Assembly: GCA_032334055.1 (NCBI GenBank)
Contig: JAUOZS010000001.1
Span: 1,710,501-1,774,500, forward strand
Direction: 5' to 3'
Length of the DNA: 64,000 nt
Origin: Selenomonadales bacterium 4137-cl
GTDB lineage: Bacteria; Bacillota; Negativicutes; Sporomusales; UBA7701
Shown here: piece after piece, positions 9,808-15,767 of the stretch
Layout of the letters: every line of letters starts with the position of its first letter
How positions within the stretch are numbered: position 1 is the first letter of the stretch
Translations under genes and position numbers: made by a program
The notes under the pieces: model-generated
The model's database searches: none
Told to the model about the DNA's origin: nothing
Seen by the model: the letters and a program-made list of their open reading frames with translations, nothing else

Positions 9808-10068
9808 ATGACGACAACGAAAGTAATCAACCTGCAGGACAGCTTTCTTAACCAGGTCCGTAAAGAAAATGTGCCTGTCATCATTTATTTGGTCAACGGC
9901 TTCCAACTGCGCGGCTCGGTGAAGGGCTTCGACAACTTTACCGTCATCATGGAGAACGAAGGCAAACAGCAGTTGGTTTACAAGCACGCTATCTCGACCA
10001 TTACGCCCTTCCGGCCCCTGAACTCAAACCTCCACGAGCGGCGCGAGGAACCTAAAACCGAAAAGTAA
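9808..10068 (+). CDS. hfq: RNA chaperone Hfq
   Basis: An 86-residue Sm-like protein that binds U-rich small RNAs and mRNAs as a hexamer. The Sm1 motif ([15 protein letters not shown]) and the Sm2 YKHAIST motif are intact. A strong GGAGGGG precedes ATG 9808. The tail after the Sm core is short and charged, as in Firmicutes. It closes the miaB-to-hfq cluster and is followed by a terminator. Confidence 0.97.
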
Positions 10069-10187: not shown

Positions 10188-10217
10188 TTCACACGAAGCC
10201 TTCACAAGGCATATAAT
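10188..10217 (+). promoter_or_regulatory. Candidate sigma-E-like promoter of spoVK
   Basis: The -10-like CATATAAT (10210-10217) matches the sigma-E consensus CATACAAT at 7 of 8 positions. It has a weak -35-like TTCACAC/TCACACG (10188-10195) at about 14-15 bases. TATAAT also fits sigma-A, so the sigma factor cannot be settled by eye. spoVK is sigma-E-controlled in Bacillus subtilis. Confidence 0.45.
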
Positions 10218-10249
10218 GATTATCACCGAACGGTAGGCGGGGTGAACAT

Positions 10250-10816
10250 ATGCCGTATCTATGGCCCAAGGACGTGCTGGCGGCGGTCGAAACGGGAGAA
10301 CTGCCGCCGGTGGAGGCGTGCAGGCTCCTGCGGGAAATGGACACTGTCGCAGCGCCGGCGGCCCGCGCCGATAACGGCGCCGCCCAGCAACGGGTGGAGG
10401 AAATCCTGCGGGAGCTCGACGCTCTTATCGGGTTGCGCGAAGTCAAAAAGCTCGTTAGAGAGATATACGCCTTCATCGAGATCCAAAAATGGCGGCAAAA
10501 AGAGCGGCTCGCGACCGAACCGCTCGTCATGCACATGATTTTCAAGGGCAACCCAGGCACCGGCAAGACGACCGTGGCCAGGATCATGGGGAAGATTTTC
10601 CGGTCGCTTGGCGTTCTGAGCCGCGGCCACCTCATCGAGGTCGAACGCGCAGACCTCGTCGGCGAGTATATCGGCCACACCGCCCAGAAAACCAGGGAGC
10701 AGCTCAAAAAGGCCTATGGAGGCATCCTCTTCATCGATGAAGCCTATTCGCTGGCCCGCGGCGGCGAAAAGGATTTTGGTAAAGAGGCAATTGATTGCAT
10801 GGTGAAATCACAGTAA
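10250..10816 (+). pseudogene. spoVK: spoVK, 5' half (gene interrupted by an excisable element)
   Basis: The N-terminal 186 codons of the stage V sporulation AAA+ ATPase SpoVK, then two element-derived codons and a stop. GGCGGGGTG precedes ATG 10250. Walker A (GNPGTGKTT, near residue 100) and Walker B (LFIDEAYSL) are intact, but the sequence breaks off right after KEAIDCMVK. Sensor 1, the arginine finger and the lid are missing, so the truncated product should be inactive. The missing part is at 15363-15767. Joining the two halves at the shared TGGT/AAAT bases gives CMVKYMEDHKDELVLILAGY, the expected SpoVK sequence, and a 317-residue protein (the Bacillus subtilis homolog is about 320). Nothing else in either half is degraded. 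It is typed as pseudogene only because it is split in this form. Confidence 0.93.
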
Positions 10817-10822
10817 TAAAAT
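10796..10822. other. attL: left junction of the spoVK element
   Basis: spoVK sequence ends at GCATGGT. From there element sequence GAAATC is followed by ACAGTAATAA (10810-10819), which is the near-perfect inverse of TTACTACTGT (15353-15362) at the other end. The bases TGGT-R-AAAT (10800-10808) are shared with attR (15364-15372). Confidence 0.8.
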
Positions 10823-10830
10823 GATATAAA

Positions 10831-10860
10831 AACGGCCGCTTAGCAGCGACCGTTTTTTAG
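10831..10860. terminator. Bidirectional terminator at the left end of the element
   Basis: AACGGCCGCT (10831-10840) pairs imperfectly with AGCGACCGTT (10845-10854), with T-runs on both outer sides. It would stop transcripts of the truncated spoVK on one strand and of the exonuclease gene on the other. Confidence 0.7.
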
Positions 10861-11715
10861 TTCGAAAAATAGCTTGTAAATATGTTTGCACGGCAGCTTC
10901 CTGCCCTGGAAGTCGGCGCAGGTGCAGGTACCGAGCGTCACGGCGTAGCCGTTGACCGTCCCGGTAGCCGTCGAACGGTCGACGGCGGCGTCGCAGATAT
11001 CGCCGGCCCGCTGCTGGCGCTTGATTTGCTCAGGGCGGTTGTGGATGCGCTCATCCCAGGGACCGAAGGCGGGGATGGTGACCGCTCCTTCGCGGAGTTT
11101 GTCGTGGCCGTCGGGGTAGATGCGTCCGCGGGTGATATTCAGCGCCTCGTGAAGAGCTCCGAAGCTCGCCGCCTTCTTTTCCCGGCATGCCATCAGGGCC
11201 ACCTGCGCGCACACGTTGGCGTCCTCGCCGGCGTCATGGTGGCGGAAAACGATGCCGTGGCGTTCGGCCAGGGCCGCCAGTCCGTAACGTTTCCAGCCAG
11301 GCCAGGTCCGCTGAGCGATGACTTTGGTACAGGAATATTCGGCGTTCAGACGGGGGATGCGGTAGAGGTCAAGGGACTGGATAAGAACATTGATGTCGAA
11401 CTCGGCGTTGTGGGCGATGATAATCCGCCCCTCAAGCAGCGGCCTGAGTTCGGGCCACAATTCGCCGAACTCGGGCTTGTCGGCCGCCATATCGGCGGTT
11501 ATGCCGTGAATTCTGACGAACCCGGGATCAAAAATTAGTTGGGGAGGGCGAACCAGCCAGGATGGGTTCGCCACCACCCGGCCGTCGGCCACGAAGGCCA
11601 GCCCCACGGCGCAGATACTGGTCCATTCCCGGTTGGCGGTTTCGAAATCGAGGGCGACGAAGTCGTACTCCTGCGGCAGTGAAGAGCAATTGTCAGCGGC
11701 GGGCGTCATTTGCAT
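10840..11715 (-). CDS. DEDDh 3'-5' exonuclease with C-terminal SWIM zinc finger
   Basis: A 291-residue cargo protein of the spoVK element. The N-terminal domain is a DnaQ-like exonuclease: DFET (DxE, near residue 23), HNAEFDINVL and the terminal HDAGEDA supply the four acids and the His of the DEDDh site. The C-terminus has CTCADFQGRKLPCKH, the CxC-x9-CxH signature of a SWIM zinc finger. It most resembles stand-alone polymerase-III-epsilon-type exonucleases; the SWIM fusion is less usual. AAAGGAACG precedes ATG 11715, with ATG 11709 as an alternative. It probably trims DNA or RNA ends. A link to excision is not shown. Confidence 0.85.
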   Translation of the reverse strand: MQMTPAADNCSSLPQEYDFVALDFETANREWTSICAVGLAFVADGRVVANPSWLVRPPQLIFDPGFVRIHGITADMAADKPEFGELWPELRPLLEGRIIIAHNAEFDINVLIQSLDLYRIPRLNAEYSCTKVIAQRTWPGWKRYGLAALAERHGIVFRHHDAGEDANVCAQVALMACREKKAASFGALHEALNITRGRIYPDGHDKLREGAVTIPAFGPWDERIHNRPEQIKRQQRAGDICDAAVDRSTATGTVNGYAVTLGTCTCADFQGRKLPCKHIYKLFFELKNGRC

Positions 11716-11733
11716 CGTTCCTTTGCTGTTTCC

Positions 11734-12495
11734 TTATTTCTTCGCTTTTGCGAGATCGGTTGTGCCGAAGCGCTCGACCGCACGGGTCAGATAGGCGGCA
11801 ACCGCCTCGTCTTTGTCCGTGCCGGGCTGGTATGTGTCAGTGGCAATGAACTGCCAAGAGCCGCCTTCCTTGGCGAGCGTGAATTTCATCAGCGCATACT
11901 GCATATTGCCTGAGACGGCCATGCTGTTTACCCGCTGCCGGCTATAGAGACAGATGCCTTCGATGGTTTTGTCGCCGGGACGGGGGCCGGAGCTGTTTAC
12001 GGCTTCGACGTAATGCAGGGTGTAGCTGCCCCAACCTGCCAGCCATGCGTCGAACTGCTCGCGCGACAGCCTGAGAGCCATTTTGTCTACCGACCGCAGC
12101 TTGACGATATCTTTTTCGTTGAAGGCTTCCATGCGCAGCAGCAGCAGGCGAACAGCCTCCCATTCCTCGGGACTTACGTACTTCTCAGCCCTGGTTATCT
12201 GCTTAACCTCAAACGCCGCGCCGTACATGCGGCTGCCGACAAGATCCGGGCGCAACCTGCCCTCGACGACGACCGCGAGGTCGTTTTTCTGGTAAGCGCG
12301 CGGCAGTTTCCTGATCGGATGATATTGCTTGCCTTCGTCGCTGAGGAGCCCGTAGGTGCCCAGAGACTCCACCCAACGCACCTTGCCCTTGAAGCGAAAC
12401 AGCGGTTGCTTATCGTCGGCCGCCGCGGACACCGCCGGCAGCAGCGCTGTAAGCGCCGCAACCGTGATGAGAATGATAAGGGTCTTTGCTCTCAT
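11734..12495 (-). CDS. Exported protein of unknown function
   Basis: A 253-residue cargo protein with TTAGGAGG before ATG 12495. A classical signal peptide (basic start, a hydrophobic run of about 15 residues, AVSAAAD cleavage site) sends it out of the cytoplasm. No lipobox is seen. The mature part has a small beta-rich region (FRFKGKVRWVESLGTYGLLS) and a C-terminal domain ending QFIATDTYQPG. I do not recognise the family. It follows the DUF2271 gene by 10 bases, so the two form an operon and may act together. Confidence 0.72.
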   Translation of the reverse strand: MRAKTLIILITVAALTALLPAVSAAADDKQPLFRFKGKVRWVESLGTYGLLSDEGKQYHPIRKLPRAYQKNDLAVVVEGRLRPDLVGSRMYGAAFEVKQITRAEKYVSPEEWEAVRLLLLRMEAFNEKDIVKLRSVDKMALRLSREQFDAWLAGWGSYTLHYVEAVNSSGPRPGDKTIEGICLYSRQRVNSMAVSGNMQYALMKFTLAKEGGSWQFIATDTYQPGTDKDEAVAAYLTRAVERFGTTDLAKAKK

Positions 12496-12505
12496 TATTA
12501 GCCTC

Positions 12506-13096
12506 CTAACGTCCTGTGGCCGTAGCCGGCGCGAATGATGCCGACACCTTGTCTATCATCGGCGCGCCCTCCCCGACCCCAGGCGGCAGATAGCTGACGA
12601 CGGCCTGCGAGGAGGAGGGGCGGTCGCCGATCGCTATTTCGCCTTCCCACAGGATTTCCTTCGCCCAGAACAGCGTGCCTTCCACCTTATAGGCATAACT
12701 GCCCGGCGCCACCGGCCGCCCGGCGCTGTCGGTGCAGTCCCAGACGAGTGTATGCGGCCCTGGCTGCTGGGTCGCGCTGGTGACGGCGTCCACTGTCGCG
12801 GTCGGCGGACCTCCCACGCCTGCAGCCTTCCGCCACAGCGGCAGGCACTCGGGCCGCCGCTCATAGCCGCCCCTGCCGGTGAAGCGGGTGACCAAAAGTG
12901 TTTTGATATATTTGCCGTCGCTGTCCTCGACCCACACCGCCATTTGGTTGCTGGCAATTGTCGGCATGCGTTGCAGCTCGTAACTGATCGTCACCGCGCC
13001 GGGCGCCTGGTCGGCGACGCCGGCGGCGAAAGCAGCGGCGGCCGTTGCCGCCAGAATAATGAGCGCCAGAAGTATTATCCGTCTCTCCGGTCGCAT
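12506..13096 (-). CDS. DUF2271 family exported protein (FlgD-like Ig fold)
   Basis: A 196-residue protein. ATG 13096 is well spaced behind AAGGAG; ATG 13102 is too close. After a signal peptide (residues about 5-25) come the DUF2271 hallmarks: ASNQMAVWVEDSDGKYIKTL, TGRGGYERRPECLPLW, and a VWDCTDSAGRPVAPGSYAY strand pair as in FlgD-type Ig domains. Members of this family are periplasmic and often sit near flavin or heme proteins. None is visible here. It is the first gene of a two-gene unit inside the spoVK element. Confidence 0.78.
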   Translation of the reverse strand: MRPERRIILLALIILAATAAAAFAAGVADQAPGAVTISYELQRMPTIASNQMAVWVEDSDGKYIKTLLVTRFTGRGGYERRPECLPLWRKAAGVGGPPTATVDAVTSATQQPGPHTLVWDCTDSAGRPVAPGSYAYKVEGTLFWAKEILWEGEIAIGDRPSSSQAVVSYLPPGVGEGAPMIDKVSASFAPATATGR

Positions 13097-13181
13097 GATC
13101 ATGCTCCTTATTGCTCGAATCTCCTCTAGCCTTCGACGCTGGCCGCCGAAATCCTGTAGGCTGCCGGCAACTCACCGGCAA

Positions 13182-13206
13182 ACAAAAATCCCCCGGAACG
13201 GGGGAT
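13182..13206 (-). terminator. Terminator after the zinc-ribbon gene
   Basis: On the minus strand ATCCCCC (13200-13206 side) pairs with GGGGGAT (13188-13194 side) and is followed by TTTTGTTT. Confidence 0.7.
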
Positions 13207-13231
13207 ATGGGGATGATGCAACAACATGAGG

Positions 13232-13381
13232 CTAACGGTTCTGTTCCTTCGACTGTGGCAGGTTGTTTTTCAGTTCGATCGACTTCTGGCAGGACGGGCA
13301 TGTGACGGAGTTGTGCCGTTTCTGGATCTCTTCCACCGTCAGCTTGATCGGGTTACGGCACTCAGGACAGTTGAACTTCAC
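13232..13381 (-). CDS. Small zinc-ribbon protein
   Basis: A 49-residue protein with GTG 13381 behind GGGAGG. The two CxxC pairs (CPECRN and CPSCQK, 25 residues apart) form a treble-clef or ribbon zinc site like those of small MJ0042-type ribbons. It lies just downstream of the recombinase on the same strand. It could be a regulator or accessory factor of the element, but nothing in the sequence proves a role. Confidence 0.65.
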   Translation of the reverse strand: MKFNCPECRNPIKLTVEEIQKRHNSVTCPSCQKSIELKNNLPQSKEQNR

Positions 13382-13473
13382 AAAAAAACCTCCCTGGTCA
13401 GGTGATAAAGATAGCATTCGCCGTCACCGGCGAAATACCTACGCTAGAATATTGGAACTATTTTTCCCTGCAT

Positions 13474-15006
13474 TTATAAAAACTTCAGTTCGATGCTTAT
13501 TTCCGGCCGGCTGCCACGCGCTTTCGTCGAATCCCGCCTTTCCACCACCGCTTTCTCCAGTACCGCCCGCACGGCTGCCCGTTTTTCCTCGTAGGGCAGG
13601 TCGCCGGCGGCGAAATTCTGCTGTAAGGCGGCCACAAGTTCGGAAGGGGAGAGGAAGGGGGAGGCGGCGGCAAGTTCGGCGCGGATTTTTTTCTTGTTCT
13701 GCTCGATGTCGTGCAGACGGGTACGGATGTCGGCCAATTGGCGCTCGGCATCCTCGTCGCTTACCATCTGCTGACGGTACCAGCGCAGCAGCATCTCCCG
13801 CTGCTTGACAAGCCTCGTCTCGTTGTCGGCCAGGCGTTCGAGGGCTGTCTGAAGGTTCTGAGCACCCGCCTGACTCGGCCGGGCGACGAGATACTGCTTG
13901 ATTTGCTTGGGGTTGGCACTCAACTGCAGTAGATGGTCGAAAACCGCCTTATCGAGTGCTTCGGTGGGAATGCGCCGGGCGGCGCAGCGTTCCTGGCCGG
14001 AATATATGTACGTGTTGCTGCGCTGACTGACGCAAACATAGTAGCTTCTCGGCTCCGTCGCCTTACCGGCGTAGGCGATTGTCATCTTCCGCCCGCACCT
14101 GGCGCAATAGACGAGGCCGTTTAAAAGCTGTTCGTGTTTGAGATTGCGCTTGGACAGCGACTTATTCTCCTTGAGCTGGCGCAGGGCCGCCTCCCACGTG
14201 GCGGAGTCGACGATCGCCGGCACCGGCACCTCGATCCATTCAGCCTCTGGTCTGAGCTCCCTGACCCGCTTATTCTGACCGACCTTCTGGTACTTGTAGC
14301 GCATGGCCACGTGGGTGCCTTTGTAGAGCGGATTGGTCAGCAGCCGGTATACGGCTGACACGATCCACGGCTTTTTCAGGCGAGGGGAGGGTATCCCCTG
14401 TTCGTTGAGGCGCTTGCAAATCGTAGCTGTGCCGACTTTCTCCGTCACCAGCCAGTCGTACATCCGTCGGACAATCTCCGCCTCGGGCTCGTTTATGGCA
14501 TAGTTGCTCACCTTGCGGTCGAAAGTGTAGCCGAACGGCTTGGCGTCGGCGATGATTTTGCCCTTGGCCGCCTTGCCGCGTTTGCCGCGCAGCGACCGTT
14601 CCTTGATTTTCTCTTTCTCGTAGTCGGCGATCGCGCCGCGGATGGAATAAAACAGCTTCCCCTCGGCAGACTGCTCGAAGGAAACCGACACAAAAACCAG
14701 TTCCGCTCCGGCACGCTCGATCTCTTCGGTAATGATCAACTGATGAGCGAGATTACGGGCCAAGCGGTCCGGGTCGAAAACAATGACATAAGCGAATTCG
14801 TGTCCGGCCAGCCGGCCGCGCAGCTTATCGAGCGCCGGACGGTCGATGAATTCGCCGCTATAGCCGTCGTCGACAAACTCCTCCGCAGCTTTTGTGCCCA
14901 GTTCACCGGCCCGGCGCCGGCATTCCTCAAGCTGGGTGTCGAGGGAATAACCCTTTTCCGCCTGCTCGGCGGTGCTCACCCTTGCATATATCGCCGCCTT
15001 GGTCAT
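13474..15006 (-). CDS. Large serine recombinase of the spoVK element
   Basis: A 510-residue site-specific recombinase with GGGAGG before ATG 15006. The N-terminal resolvase domain has the nucleophile Ser11 (YARVSTAEQ) and conserved arginines (FDPDRLARN). A Recombinase domain follows (KPFGYTFDR, PSPRLKKPW), then a zinc beta-ribbon (CARCGRKMTIAYAG ... CVSQRS ... CAARR) and a C-terminal coiled coil (about residues 370-460). This is the same architecture as SpoIVCA, the skin excisionase. The gene appears fully intact and points inward from the right att site. It is the likely enzyme for integration and excision. Excision usually also needs a directionality factor. Confidence 0.95.
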   Translation of the reverse strand: MTKAAIYARVSTAEQAEKGYSLDTQLEECRRRAGELGTKAAEEFVDDGYSGEFIDRPALDKLRGRLAGHEFAYVIVFDPDRLARNLAHQLIITEEIERAGAELVFVSVSFEQSAEGKLFYSIRGAIADYEKEKIKERSLRGKRGKAAKGKIIADAKPFGYTFDRKVSNYAINEPEAEIVRRMYDWLVTEKVGTATICKRLNEQGIPSPRLKKPWIVSAVYRLLTNPLYKGTHVAMRYKYQKVGQNKRVRELRPEAEWIEVPVPAIVDSATWEAALRQLKENKSLSKRNLKHEQLLNGLVYCARCGRKMTIAYAGKATEPRSYYVCVSQRSNTYIYSGQERCAARRIPTEALDKAVFDHLLQLSANPKQIKQYLVARPSQAGAQNLQTALERLADNETRLVKQREMLLRWYRQQMVSDEDAERQLADIRTRLHDIEQNKKKIRAELAAASPFLSPSELVAALQQNFAAGDLPYEEKRAAVRAVLEKAVVERRDSTKARGSRPEISIELKFL

Positions 15007-15091
15007 AATGGTCCTCCCGCGATTGTTTATCTTTGCTGCAATAGTTCAATACCGCCACGTCATTTCCTGCCTGTCCGGCGGTGAAAAGGGG

Positions 15092-15121
15092 GAATACCGC
15101 CGGGACGCCGCCTCATATAAT
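15092..15121 (+). promoter_or_regulatory. Candidate sigma-E-like promoter inside the element
   Basis: GAATACC (15092-15098), 15 bases, CATATAAT (15114-15121). The -10 octamer is identical to that upstream of spoVK (10210-10217), and the -35 matches five of seven positions of the sigma-E pattern KMATATT. It points at the small ORF and on toward the 3' half of spoVK. TATAAT would also suit sigma-A. Confidence 0.35.
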
Positions 15122-15138
15122 GCGACGAGGTGGTCGAT

Positions 15139-15321
15139 ATGGTCCGCGAAAAGGAACGCTCCGCCGTCAAACAGGCCGTGATCATCATCATCCGCCATAC
15201 GGGCGAATGGGATCCGGCCCGCCACGCACTTTCCTTTCTCAGGCCGCTGATCGAAGGTGAGAGCCGGCGCCTGACGACGCTGCCCCCCCAGCCGCCCGGC
15301 AGCGGTCCGCCGCCCGGGTAA
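15139..15321 (+). CDS. Small basic ORF next to attR, candidate recombination directionality factor
   Basis: A 60-residue ORF from ATG 15139 with GAGGTGG five bases upstream; GTG 15130 is an alternative. The N-terminal half is charged then hydrophobic (VKQAVIIIIRHTG), the middle basic, and the tail Pro/Gly-rich (LPPQPPGSGPPPG). No family is recognised. It is divergent from the recombinase and lies between it and the att site, where accessory recombination factors are often found. In SP-beta the factor SprB is of similar size (about 58 residues). The assignment rests on position and size only, and the coding status itself is uncertain. Confidence 0.4.
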   Translation: MVREKERSAVKQAVIIIIRHTGEWDPARHALSFLRPLIEGESRRLTTLPPQPPGSGPPPG

Positions 15322-15352
15322 CCGCGCCGCTTGAGCGTCCTTGGATTTTTTG

Positions 15353-15378
15353 TTACTACTGTTTGGTAAAATACATGG
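15353..15378. other. attR: right junction of the spoVK element
   Basis: The element arm TTACTACTGT (15353-15362) is followed by T-TGGT-A-AAAT and then spoVK sequence from TACATGGAAG. With the left end it would rebuild an attP with 10-bp inverted arms (one mismatch) around an 11-base centre. Confidence 0.8.
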
Positions 15379-15767
15379 AAGACCATAAGGATGAGCTTGT
15401 TCTTATCTTGGCCGGCTACCAACGGGAAATGGAACAGTTCCTCCAGACTAACCCCGGTCTCCGTTCCCGCTTTCCCATCCACATCGATTTCCCCGACTAC
15501 TCCCAGGAGGAATTGCTGGCGATCGCCGAGCAGCTGTGCGCCAGACGCCAGTATCAGCTTACCGTGCAGACACGGTTGGCCCTCCTGAGAATGCTCACCC
15601 CTCCCGCCAAGCGCGACGACGACAATTTCGGCAATGCCCGCACGGTGCGCAACATCATCGAAAAAGCTCTCCGGCGCCAGGCGGTCCGCCTGGTGGCCAA
15701 GGCCAGCATAACCCGCGAAGAGCTTATGGCCATCGAGCCGTGCGACCTCCCGGAGGTGGAAGGATGA
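15363..15767 (+). pseudogene. spoVK: spoVK, 3' half (interrupted by the element)
   Basis: An open frame encoding the C-terminal 131 residues of SpoVK. It opens with KYMEDHKDELVLILAGY (sensor 1 region), then NPGLRSRFPIHIDFPDY with the arginine finger, and a lid domain with NARTVRNIIEKALRRQA. The nominal TTG 15363 has no ribosome site, so this half is unlikely to be made alone. It is fully conserved and becomes the tail of SpoVK only when joined to 10250-10807. Its stop overlaps the start of the next gene (ATGA), so excision would also couple the GTPase gene to spoVK translation. Confidence 0.93.

Follow-up and report, generated by a model that had tools for sequence, protein, structure and literature searches.

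In spore formers, programmed DNA excision has been described for a handful of genes. The host genes named in the reports concerned are sigK, spsM, spoVFB, spoVR, gerE and yabG (PMC5595907, PMC10747680, PMC4191935, PMC6957869). The skin element of Clostridioides difficile (in sigK; CD1231, CD1234) combines a split mother-cell gene, a large serine recombinase and a small factor gene; gin of Bacillus cereus ATCC 10987 (in gerE; GirC, GirX), which is no prophage, likewise brings together a mother-cell gene, a serine recombinase and a small factor (PMC5595907); SP-beta in Bacillus subtilis spsM (SprA/SprB) splits a mother-cell gene that is rebuilt during sporulation (PMC4191935); and vfbin (spoVFB), vrin (spoVR) and yin (yabG) are such elements in further sporulation genes (PMC4191935, PMC10747680). 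In all these respects they resemble the locus described here, for which the rebuilding and the role of the small protein are predictions. It lies in a stretch of 64 kb (hereafter the window) of the 4.5-Mb genome of Selenomonadales bacterium 4137-cl, of the class Negativicutes (3 contigs, 100% completeness rating), where the sporulation gene spoVK is cut in two by an element of 4,564 bp. I argue that spoVK is very probably a developmentally rearranged gene, in which the recombinase of the element and a predicted factor would precisely excise the element in the mother cell and restore a SpoVK of 317 residues.

The split spoVK gene and its relatives

The features on which the argument turns are the following, with positions counted from the first letter of the window.

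10190..10218, + strand: predicted promoter-like site of spoVK, sigma-K/E type (CAC, 17 nucleotides (nt), CATATAATG)
10250..10803, + strand: spoVK 5' half (its frame extends to 10816)
10802..10803, + strand: GT, centre dinucleotide of attL, putative crossover point
10804..15367, no strand: intervening element, 4,564 bp, delimited by the joint and by comparison of the ends
13474..15006, - strand: large serine recombinase, 510 amino acids (aa), full length
15094..15122, + strand: predicted promoter-like site of the small open reading frame (ORF), sigma-E type (ATA, 17 nt, CATATAATG), kept in 5/5 genus genomes
15139..15321, + strand: 60-aa protein beside the recombinase start, predicted recombination directionality factor
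15366..15367, + strand: GT, centre dinucleotide of attR, putative crossover point
15368..15767, + strand: spoVK 3' half

The 5' half begins with ATG at 10250 and remains open until 10816 (188 aa, the final two residues being encoded by the insert), and the 3' half occupies 15368-15767, closing with a stop codon. The two are collinear, with matches to the TIGR02881 spore_V_K model, by which the interrupted gene is SpoVK, at positions 2-136 and 133-261 of 261, respectively; mother-cell expression is a prediction here. The split cuts the AAA domain, leaving the lid in the 3' half. Joined in silico at each of ten neighbouring core positions, the halves give an identical open frame of 317 aa, with IDCMVK followed by YMEDHK, which scores 416.3 bits against TIGR02881 in a single stretch (2-261), the curated cut-off of 422.95 being slightly higher; five uninterrupted relatives score 410.9-429.5 bits, two of the five likewise below the cut-off. 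An earlier note on this DNA had claimed two intact collinear halves and a joined frame of 317 residues, which is borne out by the ORFs, the model matches and the in silico joints. The junction that it proposed, 10803/15368, also stands and defines the insert of 4,564 bp; of the shared TGGT-R-AAAT core that it saw there, GT alone recurs at both ends across the relatives. A second complete spoVK, which the note held would refute rearrangement, was looked for in the genome and not found; the third match covers the protein in part, at 27% identity (E 2.6e-4).

The same split recurs among relatives. In a search of 60 genomes, the own genome included, 18 carry spoVK split at the same residue: the own genome, all four other members of the genus, one other member of the family and 12 genomes in five further families. 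Across the class, the break in spoVK falls at the same codons in 25 of 380 genomes, again with the own genome included (G000-G005, G009, G011, G014, G018, G022-G025, G031, G038, G049, G057, G125, G126, G127, G129, G130, G132 and G133), and because of this recurrence chance can be excluded for the split. Two of the 25 are counted from one half at a contig edge (G126, 3' half; G130, 5' half), and two have the halves on different contigs (G022, G038). Among the split genomes are some identified as Sporomusa carbonis (G018), S. acidovorans DSM 3132 (G023), S. ovata DSM 2662 (G024), Propionispora sp. 2/2-37 (G133) and a metagenome-assembled genome called Pelosinus sp. (G132). The unsplit genomes number 23, namely 22 with an uninterrupted match and one, G006, with a frameshifted gene; the remaining matches of the class search, among those listed, are AAA proteins whose identity does not exceed 56% (for the most part 40-49%); these were excluded from the counts. 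In G006 (C240:25127-26075) spoVK lies in two overlapping pieces in different frames with no insert, either a frameshift or a sequencing error.

The recombinase follows the split. An ortholog (at least 50% identity) is encoded in 26 of the 380 genomes, that is, in 25/25 split genomes and in 1/23 unsplit ones (G131), the next-best recombinases being at most 46% identical to that of the window. In the split genomes its gene sits inside the insert or else on a contig that carries one of the halves, and it is free of stops. The earlier note had described the recombinase of the window as undamaged, and indeed it is full length, with Resolvase, Recombinase and zinc-ribbon domains; the degradation in all relatives that, according to the same note, would refute its case was sought, and the gene is open in 25/25 genomes with the insertion. 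The catalytic-serine motif RVST is present in 26/26 recombinases compared, and the protein of the window matches solved structures of SprA (YokA) with E 2.5e-11. In an even sample of the phylum, the clade is found in none of 384 genomes of other classes (E 1e-150).

Beyond the class, in an even phylum sample of 398 genomes (with the matches listed and 14 lower-scoring genomes followed), one more split was found among the matches listed and followed. G488, from another class, is split at the same codons by an insert of 75.7 kb (C60:5637-82213); the joint is open, and a recombinase only 28% identical to that of the window lies against the 3' half. This looks like an independent element at the same site. 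A 62-aa ORF stands just before that recombinase. In G753, the end of C74 and the start of C60 break exactly at the spoVK codons V-K-A-M-E with an 18-base overlap, which possibly reflects a mixed population in which some cells have an insert and others lack it, or just an assembly break. In S. ovata, a distance of 290 kb separates the halves, which are oppositely oriented (C4:442892-443281, +, and 734633-735196, -); with the arrangement as assembled, recombination of attL with attR would produce an inversion rebuilding spoVK. Its 3' side has cargo in common with G022.

Selection was assessed from the ratio of nonsynonymous to synonymous substitution rates (dN/dS). Within the own genus, the 5' half has a dN/dS of 0.026-0.096 and the 3' half one of 0.029-0.11, at dS of 0.52-1.30; among the six family genomes it is 0.026-0.096 and 0.029-0.141, respectively, and 0.057-0.163 for the recombinase (3/15 synonymously saturated pairs dropped for the 3' half, 1/15 pairs left out for the recombinase), and for six pairs of uninterrupted genes the values are 0.026-0.10. 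By these ratios both halves are under purifying selection in the own genus. Both being open and conserved, they might be thought to act as separate, cooperating proteins without any joining of DNA; such a split protein can practically be dismissed. The cut passes through the AAA domain. Before the first Met of the 3' half the ribosome-binding match is poor (at most 3 of 6) in 21/24 genomes, compared with 4-5 of 6 at the own start of spoVK; in 5/24 an alternative start codon is absent within 30 codons upstream; and the tails of the 5' half range over 2-45 codons (24 genomes). The split-protein reading was rejected. Given the weak ribosome-binding matches and the variable tails, selection on the halves is hardly possible unless they are joined.

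The recombinase tree comprises three groups: f1, the family of the window, with f5 (8 genomes); the Pelosinus-type family f12 (7); and a mix of f7, f16, f19 and f25 (10). On the SpoVK tree, in which some long rows are of doubtful placement, the distribution of split and whole genes requires 11 changes, at least 7 of them forced by well-supported branches; for f1/f5, the recombinase and SpoVK trees concur on the main groups. Every one of the six genomes sampled from the family of the window retains the split. This history may be read as descent within lineages and lateral entry into others, plus losses; the element would have entered the site more than once, and in the family of the window it was probably inherited by descent.

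Attachment sites and the predicted switch

Both ends could be compared in 23 genomes. The left and right ends always share the letters GT (23/23), which are positions 1 and 2 of the valine codon in V-K; the bases after GT differ between the two ends in several genomes, and the reading frame is kept across the joint in 23/23. When the inner ends are combined, the resulting attP has a mean of 12.3 self-complementary positions out of 20, and the symmetric fraction (up to 14 positions) is 0.56 when centred on GT vs 0.23-0.32 at ten shifted centres; the symmetry of attB is lower (6.5 of 20). A serine recombinase that uses a GT overlap would require such a symmetric attP, and the symmetry persists in long-diverged elements; the crossover point is presumably at GT.

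These ends bear on the alternative raised in the earlier note, namely a plain inactivating insertion whose halves are relics in lineages no longer needing spoVK. The gene is broken in the genome as sequenced, the strain's sporulation is only presumed, and sigK is split too. Nevertheless, both halves evolve like intact genes at dS of 0.5-1.3, the recombinases are open in 25/25 genomes, the attP half-sites remain matched, and the frame survives across every joint with both ends. Comparison with relatives argues strongly against inactivation, which I regard as very unlikely, and supports the note's proposal that spoVK is a developmentally rearranged sporulation gene.

The small ORF is the candidate for a factor that would direct excision. 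Searching with a profile of the 60-aa protein locates a relative immediately next to the start of the recombinase in 18/18 non-Pelosinus elements; 15 of these built the profile, and those of G022, G024 and G038 are new. A small protein adjoining the recombinase, as with factors of the SprB/CD1234 type, is thus present in every non-Pelosinus element, and the 60-aa protein is likely, from its position and promoter, a recombination directionality factor. Separately, a 57-aa ORF is common to 5/7 f12 elements.

The sequences before the small ORF would suit mother-cell control. CATA stands 23-34 nt before its start in 18/18 non-Pelosinus elements, compared with 109/1263 control ORFs having CATA between -40 and -18. 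A SpoIIID-like box, RRACARNY, precedes CATA by 15-16 nt in 9 elements, such a pair (10-26 nt) occurring in 1/1263 controls; the 8-base core alone is found in 14/23 elements vs 49/1263 controls. In the window's genus, the small ORF is preceded by ATA, 17 nt and CATATA(A/C)T in 5/5 genomes, and spoVK itself by CAC, 17 nt and CATATAATG in 6/6 family genomes. Within the 64 kb, the mother-cell-type box CATATAATG occurs at just two sites, one preceding spoVK and the other the small ORF, against 0.16 expected; 1/100 shuffles reached two. In the literature, sigma-E and sigma-K of C. difficile have similar -10 boxes, with ATA or AC at -35 (PMC3789822); CD1234 is driven by sigma-E and SpoIIID (PMC5025042), a parallel to the control predicted here; and B. 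subtilis spoVK, expressed in the mother cell, has sigma-E and sigma-K promoters, with SpoIIID (PMC517825).

Alternatively, the element could be a mobile one that excises occasionally in any cell, with no tie to sporulation, spoVK being restored by chance or by reinfection-type dynamics. Lateral spread and repeated gain and loss on the trees would suit such a passenger, which needs no conjugation or phage genes, and the regulation is so far a prediction. On the other hand, CATA-type and SpoIIID-like boxes precede the small ORF, the element is kept in all six sampled family genomes, and the halves are constrained; chance excision is therefore unlikely, if marginally less so than plain inactivation.

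Several observations weigh against developmental excision. G131 encodes a recombinase of the same clade (C92:864-2393, 50% identity) away from a whole spoVK. In the seven f12 elements a convincing match to the 60-aa profile was not found, and in five f12 ORFs CATA lies further upstream, outside the tested range (18/23 overall). The strict 10-base SpoIIID consensus is present in 3/18 elements vs 7/284 controls, and the shorter RRACARNY core was chosen after this test, which weakens the SpoIIID point; weight is placed on the fixed spacing of 15-16 nt to CATA in 9 elements. In the window's own genus, a SpoIIID-like box is absent before the small ORF. By sequence, the 60-aa protein shows no detectable relation to a solved factor, a ribosomal protein (E 0.65) being the only match, and its predicted fold, a single helix (model pLDDT, the predicted local distance difference test, of 71), has no fold match and is uninformative; its assignment as a directionality factor thus comes from position and promoter. 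No joined allele of the own genus was found among the best 120 of 7,586 SpoVK proteins (at most 79% identity); none of the same 120, which were ranked for the joint of the window, is more than 91% identical to the joint of any split relative. A degenerate attP pattern built from Sporomusa-type ends, searched in viral contigs as a sign of the excised circle, gave no match. Excision, its timing and the role of the factor are deduced from genomes, and the organism's ability to sporulate is presumed.

On balance, developmental excision remains the reading that I consider very probable, and it may proceed as follows. During growth, the recombinase alone would keep the element integrated. In the mother cell, sigma-E would turn on the small factor (together with SpoIIID in Sporomusa-type and Pelosinus-type elements), which would turn the recombinase to excision between attL and attR at GT; the joined spoVK would then be transcribed from its own sigma-E/K-type promoter. 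The forespore would retain the element, so that it would be inherited.

Cargo, sigK and the sporulation context

Upstream of the 5' half lies a gene (9808-10068) that we take from its sequence to be Hfq. The cargo of the element, all on the - strand, is as follows.

10840..11715: RNase_T-type exonuclease with SWIM finger, 291 aa (Pfam); in 8/8 f1/f5 elements
11734..12495: exported-looking protein without Pfam match, 253 aa; in 8/8 f1/f5 elements
12506..13102: DUF2271 / FlgD-Ig-like protein, 198 aa; in 5/8 f1/f5 elements
13232..13417: small zinc-ribbon-like protein, 61 aa (weak Pfam matches below cut-off); in 5/8 f1/f5 elements

The exonuclease and the 253-aa protein (10840-12495) are thus retained in 8/8 f1/f5 elements despite the predicted excision. 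Element size, measurable in 20/25 genomes, ranges from about 2.9 kb (G011) to 23 kb (G057). A PHROG structural match is absent from the cargo in the window, and so, by Pfam, is any phage structural gene from 20 selected cargo proteins of 8 other elements; these 20 include molybdopterin oxidoreductase, transporters, pyruvate:ferredoxin oxidoreductase, enolase, ThiG, chemotaxis proteins, RadC, restriction-type proteins and an IS66 transposase, with two assigned to no family. By gene content, the element is neither a prophage nor a phage remnant, as would be recognised from structural or packaging genes. Phage, plasmid and viral-contig sources were considered for the recombinase and rejected: 637 matching phage records are all below 60% identity (36.5% the highest among the 12 listed), plasmid matches are likewise all below 60% (33.5% the highest among the 10 listed), and viral contigs give one match at 27%.

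Outside the window, the sigK gene of the same genome is also split, its two halves lying 51 kb apart (C1:2121548-2173742). The insert has an 11-base word common to its ends, another recombinase, and genes for tail sheath, tape measure and tail fibre, and by this gene content it is a skin of prophage-like type that carries contractile-tail genes. For sigK, the 25 spoVK-split genomes divide into 18 with halves or one half only, 6 with a whole gene and 1 in which it was not found; spoIVA exceeds the cut-off in 23/25, the own genome included. Slightly downstream of sigE-sigG, another family of large serine recombinases is found in G049 (C1:2345985-2347352) and similarly in other genomes, following a SpoIIR-like ORF at two loci. 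The sigE-sigG gap of the own genome was considered as a further split gene and rejected, for it holds metabolic-looking genes instead.

A bolder proposal, on which I am almost evenly divided and lean slightly towards doubt, is that in this class spoVK serves as a standing recombination lock on sporulation. At least two distant recombinase lineages would have settled on the same codons, the lock would have been kept through the radiation of the family, sigma-E would trigger both the 51-kb sigK and the 4.6-kb spoVK excisions, and in S. ovata the lock would open by inversion.

Comparison with known systems

As a split host gene, spoVK has no report that could be found in the open-licence literature, and it is unmentioned in the main texts of PMC5595907, PMC10747680, PMC13141910, PMC4191935 and PMC6957869; the earlier note's remark that the gene had not been described as a host holds within that literature. 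Skin-like elements probably have in spoVK a home that is new and that they have taken up repeatedly. With 25/380 genomes split in a class that lies outside Bacilli and Clostridia proper, this additional host gene suggests that rearrangements of this type are frequent there and selectively kept. Moreover, the elements resemble minimal recombination units of a recombinase with a small factor, the shortest measuring about 3 kb. They occur in Sporomusa species that can be cultured, and it becomes testable whether sporulation is timed by them or they just ride along.

The differences from the described systems are plain. The skin of C. difficile resides in sigK and is prophage-like, unlike the non-phage cargo found here in spoVK. 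SP-beta is an active phage with a distant recombinase and has spsM as host. As described in the reports, gin measures 28.6 kb, has three recombinases and occupies another host gene in another class, as against 4.6 kb and one recombinase here; vfbin, vrin and yin have other host genes, and yin is presented as unique to one strain, in contrast to a split shared by 25/380 genomes. The small proteins show no detectable relation to known factors in a sequence and fold comparison that did not include CD1234 itself. To sum up, the kind of element is already known from other spore formers, and what is new here is the host gene, the recombinase/factor family and the non-phage cargo.

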